Shown: positions 5,338-26,023 of the stretch, piece by piece | How the letters are laid out: every line of letters starts with the position of its first letter | Numbering within the stretch: position 1 is the stretch's first letter | Source: Pseudomonadota bacterium | GTDB lineage: Bacteria > Pseudomonadota > Gammaproteobacteria > SURF-13 | Assembly (NCBI GenBank): GCA_027624315.1 | Contig: JAQBXX010000009.1 | Location: 1-38,956 of the forward strand | Direction: 5' to 3' | Length of the DNA stretch: 38,956 nucleotides | Notes under the pieces: model-generated | Seen by the model: only the letters and a program-made list of their open reading frames with translations | Told to the model about the DNA's origin: nothing | Database searches by the model: none | Program-made: the position numbers and the translations under genes

Positions 5338-5394
5338 TTTACTCAGGAGACACAAAGTAAGGATACACTGCTGACCAAGTGTCTCCTGAGTAAA
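5338..5394. repeat. Perfect 16-bp inverted repeat TTTACTCAGGAGACAC / GTGTCTCCTGAGTAAA, 25-nt loop
   Basis: Arms 5338-5353 and 5379-5394, in the gpmI 5' leader. Confidence 0.9.
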
Positions 5395-5420
5395 AATCTT
5401 ATTAACTCTACCCCCACCCT

Positions 5421-5449
5421 GTCCCGCCCCCTAAACAAGGGGCGGGGAC
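5421..5449. repeat. GC-rich hairpin CCCGCCCC-ctaaacaa-GGGGCGGG
   Basis: 8-bp perfect stem (5423-5430 / 5439-5446), extended by GT/AC across a bulge. Confidence 0.75.
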
Positions 5450-5537
5450 GCGCCTGAGAGTGCAGCCATAACAATGAACTCATGAGTAAATGATTTTATG
5501 CATATAGCTTGGTGGGCTATTATTATATAATGTTTAC

Positions 5538-18679: not shown

Positions 18680-19612
<933 letters not shown>

Positions 19613-19673
19613 AAAGGGGGTGGCCGAATGGCCGGGGGATTTTATTCCGATCCGCACTGTTGAAAATAAAATC

Positions 19674-24015: not shown

Positions 24016-25083
24016 TCAGGCTGTAAAGCCCAGCGGCCAGCGCGCGCGCACGTCGAAGGCAAGTTGATCGAGTTGTATCCCCGCTACATAGCGCCGGTAA
24101 CCTGCGTAGGCGATCATGGCCGCGTTGTCGGTGCAGAATTCCAGGCGCGGGTAAGACACCTTCACATTGCCGATCTCGGCAAAACGTTCACGCAGGCGCT
24201 GGTTCGCGCTCACGCCGCCTGAGACTACAAGCCGCATGAGGCTGGTGGCGCGCAAGGCGCGCTCACATTTGATGGCGAGCGTATCCACCACTGCTTCCTG
24301 AAACGCGCAGGCGATGTCGGCGCGGGTTTGTGTGCTGGTCGCTCCCGGCATCCTGCCTCCCGCGACACTAGCACGTCCCTGTGCGTCGCCATCATCGTGG
24401 GTGCGCAGTGTGGTGAGGGCGTGGGTCTTGAGTCCGCTGAAGCTGAAGTCGAGGCCAGTGCGGGCGGTCATCGGGCGCGGGAAATCAAAGCGGGCAGGGT
24501 TGCCCTGGCGCGCGAGGCGCTCCAGCGCGGGGCCGCCGGGGTAGTCGAGGCCGAGCAGTTTGGCGGTCTTGTCGAAGGCCTCGCCTGCGGCGTCGTCCAG
24601 CGATTCGCCGAGCAGGCGGTAGCGCCCCACACCGCTCACCTCGACCAGCAGCGTGTGTCCGCCTGACACCAGCAGTGCGACAAACGGAAACGCGGGCGGA
24701 TCGGGTTCGAGCAGGGGGGCGAGCAGGTGGGCCTCCATGTGGTGCACCGGCAGGGCCGGCACGCCCCAGGCCCAGGCGAGGCTGTGGCCGACGGCGGCCC
24801 CGACCAAGAGCGCTCCGACCAGACCGGGGCCTGCGGTGTAGGCTACGGCGGTGATGTCCTGCGGGCGGCAGCCCGCCTCGGCCAGCACGCGGCGGATCAG
24901 CGGCAGGGTCTTCTGGATGTGGTCGCGCGAGGCCAGCTCCGGCACCACGCCGCCGTACTCGGCGTGCAGCGCGACCTGGCTGTGCAGGGCGTGCGCCAGC
25001 AGGCCGCGCTCGGCGTCATAGACGGCGGCGGCGGTCTCATCACACGAGGTTTCAATGCCTAGGATACGAATGGGGATGCGCAT
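24016..25083 (-). CDS. tsaD: tRNA N6-adenosine threonylcarbamoyltransferase, with internal insertion
   Basis: [45 protein letters not shown] motifs. Confidence 0.96.
24328..24378. repeat. 51-bp palindromic in-frame insertion in tsaD
   Basis: Encodes [17 protein letters not shown] between GDAQ and TRADIA; GTGCT..GTCGC / GCGAC..AGCAC and GGCA-tcc-TGCC nested hairpins. Confidence 0.65.
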
Positions 25084-25495: not shown

Positions 25496-26023
25496 GTGGC
25501 TGACTCCCCGCTCAAGCTGCGTGTCAGCGAAGACATGAAGTCTGCGCTGCGCGCGGGGGAGAAGCAGCGCCTCGGCATCATCCGTCTCATCCTTGCGGCC
25601 ATCAAGCAGCGCGAGGTGGACGACCGTTCCGCCGGGAGCGGAACGGGACACCCGCAGGGTGCCCAAGGGGGGCGCGCCATGGAAGGTGCGCCTCAACGCA
25701 TCGCCCTCGACGACGGCCAGGTGCTCGCGGTGCTGGAGAAGATGCAGAAGCAGCGGCGCGAGTCGGTGAGCCAGTACGAGGCGGCGGGGCGCCAGGATCT
25801 GGCCGATCAGGAACATTTCGAGATCGGCGTGGTGCAGGGGTACATGCCAGCGCCGCTGGACGAGGCCGAGATTGACGCCCTGATCGCTACTGCCATCGCC
25901 GAAACCGGCGCCCAGACCGCGAAGGACATGGGCAAGGTCATCAGTGCGCTCAGGCTCAAGGTGCAGGGCCGTGCCGACATGGGCAAGCTCAGCGCCAAGG
26001 TAAAAGCCAAACTGGGCGGCTAG
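25496..26023 (+). CDS. yqeY: GatB/YqeY domain protein, with internal insertion
   Basis: DMKSALRAGEKQRLGIIRLILAAIKQREVDDR ... IALDDGQVLAVLEKMQKQRRESVSQYEAAGRQDLADQEHFEIGVVQGYMPAPL; GTG start. Confidence 0.92.
   Translation: MADSPLKLRVSEDMKSALRAGEKQRLGIIRLILAAIKQREVDDRSAGSGTGHPQGAQGGRAMEGAPQRIALDDGQVLAVLEKMQKQRRESVSQYEAAGRQDLADQEHFEIGVVQGYMPAPLDEAEIDALIATAIAETGAQTAKDMGKVISALRLKVQGRADMGKLSAKVKAKLGG
25628..25699. repeat. 72-bp triple-hairpin palindromic in-frame insertion in yqeY
   Basis: CCGTTCCGC/GCGGAACGG (25624-25632/25638-25646), CACCC/GGGTG (25649-25653/25657-25661), GGCGCGCC/GGTGCGCC (25671-25678/25685-25692). Confidence 0.75.

Follow-up and report, generated by a model that had tools for sequence, protein, structure and literature searches.

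The yqeY gene in the window (the whole stretch of DNA analysed here, 38,956 nucleotides) carries 24 extra codons which, with a probability of roughly 0.8, are a non-autonomous palindromic mobile element that would be recognised as DNA in trans and tolerated as an in-frame loop of the protein. We refer to this element as Y, and to a second, unrelated palindromic family, found in tsaD of the same window, as T; the best reading is that both are mobile, non-autonomous palindromes whose peptides the host proteins tolerate as loops. The genome of the window (G000) was compared with its congeners G002 and G001, with about 93% and 79% DNA identity, respectively. G000 was read in stretches, 1.18 Mb in all, of which about 0.5 Mb is covered by the comparison with G002.

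Features of the window discussed in the text. Coordinates are positions in the window.
Feature	Coordinates	Strand	Description
yqeY ORF carrying the insert	25496..26023	+	175 codons, about 150 in relatives; Pfam YqeY match
Y-type palindromic element in yqeY	25625..25696	+	72 bp / 24 codons RSAGSGTGHPQGAQGGRAMEGAPQ, in frame; site empty in both congeners; covariance-model match of 103 bits
Hairpin 1 of yqeY Y element	25624..25646	+	9-bp perfect stem, loop CGGGA; covarying helix 1
Hairpin 2 of yqeY Y element	25645..25664	+	GGGACACCCGCAGGGTGCCC; covarying helix 3
Hairpin 3 of yqeY Y element	25669..25694	+	Loop context CATGGAAG, fits CANGGANG; covarying helix 4
tsaD ORF, host of second, unrelated in-frame palindromic insert	24016..25083	-	
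T-type palindromic element in tsaD	24338..24388	-	51 bp / 17 codons, in frame; both congeners have the empty site
Empty site in glyS-like gene	20019	+	G002 ortholog carries a 51-bp in-frame T element, reverse orientation

Against the syntenic yqeY genes of both congeners, the inserted DNA is exactly 72 bp long, running from CGTTCC to CTCAA between host junctions GTGGACGAC on the left and CGCATC on the right. The original prediction had correctly called an in-frame insertion of 24 codons, but placed it at 25628-25699, one Arg codon away from the position given by the DNA. It had also pointed to a repeated Arg codon (CGT/CGC) at the insert; CGT is the element's own first codon, CGC (25697-25699) belongs to the host, and the pair does not represent a duplicated target site. 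Comparison of filled and empty sites shows no target duplication exceeding 1-3 bp. A 24-residue loop shared and alignable among homologs was looked for, and relatives have no such loop: as had been expected, both congeners lack the insert, and its residues are absent from yqeY of 15 out of 15 aligned relatives. In about 88 genomes, the YqeY match is interrupted near query residues 44-45 and 67-68, and matches to the solved YqeY chains 8xjg and 1ng6 break at the insert too. In an AlphaFold model of the insert-bearing protein (overall pLDDT 85.8), the insert is unstructured between the helix at residues 23-42 and that at residues 73-96, which are helices 2 and 3; pLDDT is mostly below 50 across residues 45-62 (45-54 and 56-62 fall below 50), and the flanking helices average above 90. 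The insert is thus predicted to form a disordered loop between helices, in agreement with the tolerance at the protein surface that had been proposed.

The three consecutive hairpins of the insert were confirmed, as was the perfect 9-bp stem with a 5-nt loop, which pairs 25624-25632 with 25638-25646. An 84-nt fold reaches -46.4 kcal/mol, versus -36.0 +/- 3.4 for shuffled sequences (z = -3.0), of which 2 in 200 folded as well. A plain BLASTN search with the insert against G000 (E ≤ 0.001) returned its own copy only. The second copy in this genome escapes BLASTN because Y copies keep structure rather than sequence, so that a covariance model is needed. Two diverged copies, at 80% and 75% identity, were found in G002 by BLASTN, with stems changed in step on both sides, and the covariance model R1 was built from these two and the yqeY copy. 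At E ≤ 0.1, full-length R1 matches turned up in 37 out of 90 genomes of Gammaproteobacteria; there were 3 in G000, 5 in G002 and as many as 19 in a single genome. The elements are about 72-80 bp long with three hairpins, typically starting with (T)CGAC and finishing with GTCAA. Among 44 aligned copies, 21 of the 25 pairs change on both sides, with a covariation score of 0.60 against 0.16 for shuffled and at most 0.10 for slid alignments (reached by 0 of 500 shuffles); fitting the copies to a model built from three of their own sequences favours the structure, but the contrast with the slid controls is still very large. The picture is unchanged with 60 aligned copies.

Within G000, the second Y copy lies in frame in prmA (contig C52:14243-14327) and, like the yqeY copy, amounts to 24 codons. 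The two sides of the gene match contiguously in prmA of G002 and G001, where the insert is missing, the gap in G002 being 24 residues by match coordinates. Other genomic copies therefore do exist, both here and in G002 (contigs C11, C119 and C112), but the BLASTN search that had been suggested misses the one in the element's own genome. Together, empty sites and other copies support the proposal of a mobile palindromic element that stays open in frame within a loop of a housekeeping protein. Among named genomes, a strict Y pattern matched metagenome-assembled genomes (MAGs) of Ectothiorhodospiraceae, Woeseiaceae, Acidiferrobacterales, Muproteobacteria and unplaced Gammaproteobacteria. An Rfam search of eight loci returned tRNAs and weak unrelated matches only, with no curated family. 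A 181-bp Y unit (L191) matched nothing in phage and plasmid collections by distant BLASTN, and a search of viral contigs with one strict pattern found no carrier.

Of the 57 Y copies inspected, 37 have a tRNA gene no more than 600 bp away, and some of the others are at contig ends. Typically, an intact tRNA is followed downstream by an incomplete duplicate of the tRNA end, and the element splits this duplicate, in the arrangement ...GGTTCGA-element-AATCC...CCA. It sits at the TTCGA of the T-loop in these duplicated fragments in either orientation, the inverted arrangement on the other strand being possible because TTCGAA is a palindrome. A few copies lie within D-arm fragments of tRNAs. Thirty-two of 60 copies begin with TCGA, and the yqeY copy is preceded by ACGA, near the usual TCGA. 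Units of 163-180 bp are repeated in tandem at tRNA-Glu (L191) and tRNA-Ser (L199), and the Y unit at tRNA-Asn is present in G002 and missing at the syntenic site in G000. Y units were also seen in tandem runs of three or four, together with fragments of tRNA ends, beside tRNA-Met and tRNA-Ser, at L198 (G024 C1) and L199 (G014 C16). The tRNA-Gln locus has a Y-type unit in G002 (C119, L074) and a T2-type element in G000 (C1:4162-4365); the two families may share a target region there.

The T element is a 51-bp unit of two hairpins that starts with GACG and ends with GCGACC, present in about 20-30 copies in G000. BLAST gave 29 matches there and 12-51 in five relatives, and a strict T pattern found 19 in G000 and 101 in G004 (reversed control pattern, 0). 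In-frame hosts in G000 are tsaD, anmK, topA, rsmE, glmM, tgt, gcvT, ddl, murE and a P-type ATPase gene, these names and that of prmA coming from reading the translations, and YqeY alone from a family scan. MurC and HolC have copies at their N-termini too, possibly upstream of the genuine start codon. Exact 51-bp empty sites were identified in relatives for tsaD, tgt, ddl, murE and the ATPase gene; for topA and gcvT, one or more relatives have such a site. By protein matches, relatives are shorter by 24 or 17 residues in prmA, anmK, topA, gcvT and the ATPase gene. The insert in rsmE is filled in G000 and G002 and empty in G001, the pattern expected for an insertion in the common ancestor of G000 and G002. 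Since the glyS-like gene carries a T copy in G002 and is empty in the window, insertions have occurred in both species. All forward T copies (eight internal and one N-terminal) use one reading frame and encode GDVQGRTSVAGGRTPGAT-like peptides, though a second forward frame is also open; the reverse copies likewise use one frame, encoding one common peptide type of 18 residues. Two N positions of hairpin A vary freely, while GGA is kept. At G000 C50:2538-2599, a 62-bp insert relative to G002 has a T-like layout with another core, GGCTCATGGATGAGCC, and is perhaps a third related family.

Other repeats were noted in the same genome. A repeat of about 145-150 bp at 5341-5487 of the window (CTCAGGAGACAC...GTGTCTCCTGAG ... 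CCCCACCCTGTCCCGCCCCCT) is MITE-like, common in G000 and missing at the G002 sites; further copies are at C19:11815, C22:14665, C22:32432, C30:10120, C30:13185 and C6:5452. An insertion family of about 140 bp, TGCCTCTAAAAATGATGGATTTTGCTTCAAGAC...GCATTTTTAGAGGTGCC, also looks like a MITE (C30:12324, C31:2141, C40:4205 and C43:11695). A GC-rich repeat, AATCCCCCCTCGCT..CGCTCGACCCCCTTT.AAAAGGGGGTGGCC, occurs at 267-367 and 19578-19642 of the window, the latter copy within an 81-bp stretch absent from G002.

Y stems are nearly pure Watson-Crick, with 1.9% G-U pairs versus 6.7% in tRNAs at the same loci (p = 1.6e-7). Taken with the use of both orientations and the palindromic tRNA target, this suggests recognition as DNA hairpins. 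Among the residual non-Watson-Crick cells, G-U exceeds A-C by 18 to 6, and a partial constraint at the RNA level is possible. We propose that an enzyme supplied in trans would recognise the hairpins as DNA, probably in single-stranded form, with the TTCGAA palindrome of tRNA T-loops as the likely usual target and TCGA- or CGA-like sites within genes as occasional ones, the elements presumably passing from the tRNA niche into genes. To persist within a gene, an insertion would need a length that is a multiple of three, an open frame and a peptide that lies in a flexible loop. A RAYT (Y1_Tnp) origin is unsupported: no Y match lies within 1.5 kb of eight Y1_Tnp loci in G000, which has four such genes, and related genomes. 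One T copy is about 1.25 kb from one Y1_Tnp locus. G002 has Y and T elements and no detected Y1_Tnp.

Among other explanations, the one that survives best, although we consider it unlikely, is that Y is kept as an RNA regulatory module whose CANGGANG loops are putative CsrA/Rsm sites, either placing host genes under CsrA or titrating it. Rsm proteins bind 5'CANGGANG3' (PMC6849547), and CANGGANG is found in hairpin 3 of 36 of 56 distinct Y copies, with GGA there in 19 more; nearly all T hairpin-A loops retain GGA in the same context while N positions vary. Hairpins with this loop type exceed the Markov expectation (25 versus 0-4 at stem 6), an enrichment limited to the CANGGANG class, as there is no GGA-loop excess among all strong hairpins, and five of the six genomes of the family contain csrA. 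However, the elements lie in both orientations relative to host genes and tRNAs, such that some transcripts would carry the complement, the low G-U content favours DNA, a loop read by a transposase would be conserved equally, and the hosts are unrelated housekeeping genes. Going by the fit to the motif and the presence of csrA, an RNA-level role of Y and T loops is possible. A broader and tentative proposal, which we would not yet favor, is that Y is an undescribed class of structured hairpin mobile DNA of Gammaproteobacteria that targets TTCGAA, builds tandem tRNA-end cassettes and spills in frame into essential genes, where its CsrA/Rsm-type loops may plug host mRNAs into CsrA control.

An assembly or binning artefact, or a decaying yqeY, is highly improbable: the assembly is draft and MAG-like, with 53 contigs and runs of N, but inserts of exact multiples of three from two unrelated families occur in a dozen genes with clean empty sites, and the sequence flanking the yqeY insert is free of frameshifts, at about 93-95% identity to G002. 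Least probable of all is a lineage-specific functional YqeY loop with inverted repeats arising by chance. An open frame and an apparently intact host gene speak for it, but DNA of the same family lies in prmA and beside tRNA genes, where the non-coding copies contradict this reading, and the loop is seen in no relative and is predicted to be disordered.

Y and T were also compared with known systems. Rickettsia palindromic elements are short palindromic repeats found in frame in numerous unrelated protein genes, where they encode a conserved peptide (reviewed in PMC10969869). Y and T resemble them in having multiple copies per genome, in unrelated protein genes and largely in one reading frame. 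Rickettsia elements, however, are alphaproteobacterial and described as about 150 bp, whereas Y and T are gammaproteobacterial, at 72-80 and 51 bp; Y is further set apart, by description, by its three covarying hairpins and tRNA T-loop niche, and T by its 51-bp two-hairpin unit. The likeness to Rickettsia elements drawn by the original prediction thus extends to behaviour, but Y is probably a family of its own. Palindromes within genes were also known from bacteria other than Rickettsia: Di Nocera 2013 (PMC3733652) reported palindromic REPs inside coding genes, including gammaproteobacterial ones such as Thioalkalivibrio uvrA, and CGTC REP families without a dedicated transposase. The GTAG REP / RAYT system has a terminal GTAG tag, a single stem-loop and REPs flanking RAYT genes; neither Y nor T carries the tag, and Y, which has three hairpins, was not found flanking Y1_Tnp loci here. 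CGTC REPs have a CGTC tag, an 8-9 bp stem and a 4-5 nt loop, and although the left end of T is GACG (CGTC on the other strand), its hairpin A has a 4-5 bp stem and a 6-nt loop. Enterobacterial intragenic small mobile sequences are non-autonomous repeats carrying ORFs inside genes (Delihas 2007, PMC2759123); these and bacterial MITEs are small, non-autonomous, ORF-carrying and intragenic, as are Y and T, in which neither long terminal inverted repeats nor clear target duplication was seen. CsrA-sequestering RNAs of the CsrB/RsmZ type share with Y several hairpins with GGA loops, but Y is no RNA gene, being scattered in both orientations in genes and beside tRNAs, without an Rfam match.

No description of Y or T elements was found in the open-licence literature. 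What appears to be new is a covarying architecture of three hairpins, a niche at tRNA T-loops and the presence of two unrelated families in one small genome. The findings amount to an invasion of a dozen housekeeping proteins, similar to that by Rickettsia palindromic elements, by two unrelated families outside Rickettsiales, and the empty and filled sites in sister species make peptide tolerance and mobility directly testable. Y, widespread and covarying at tRNA genes, also has no entry in Rfam and is liable to be annotated as odd protein loops or spurious genes.
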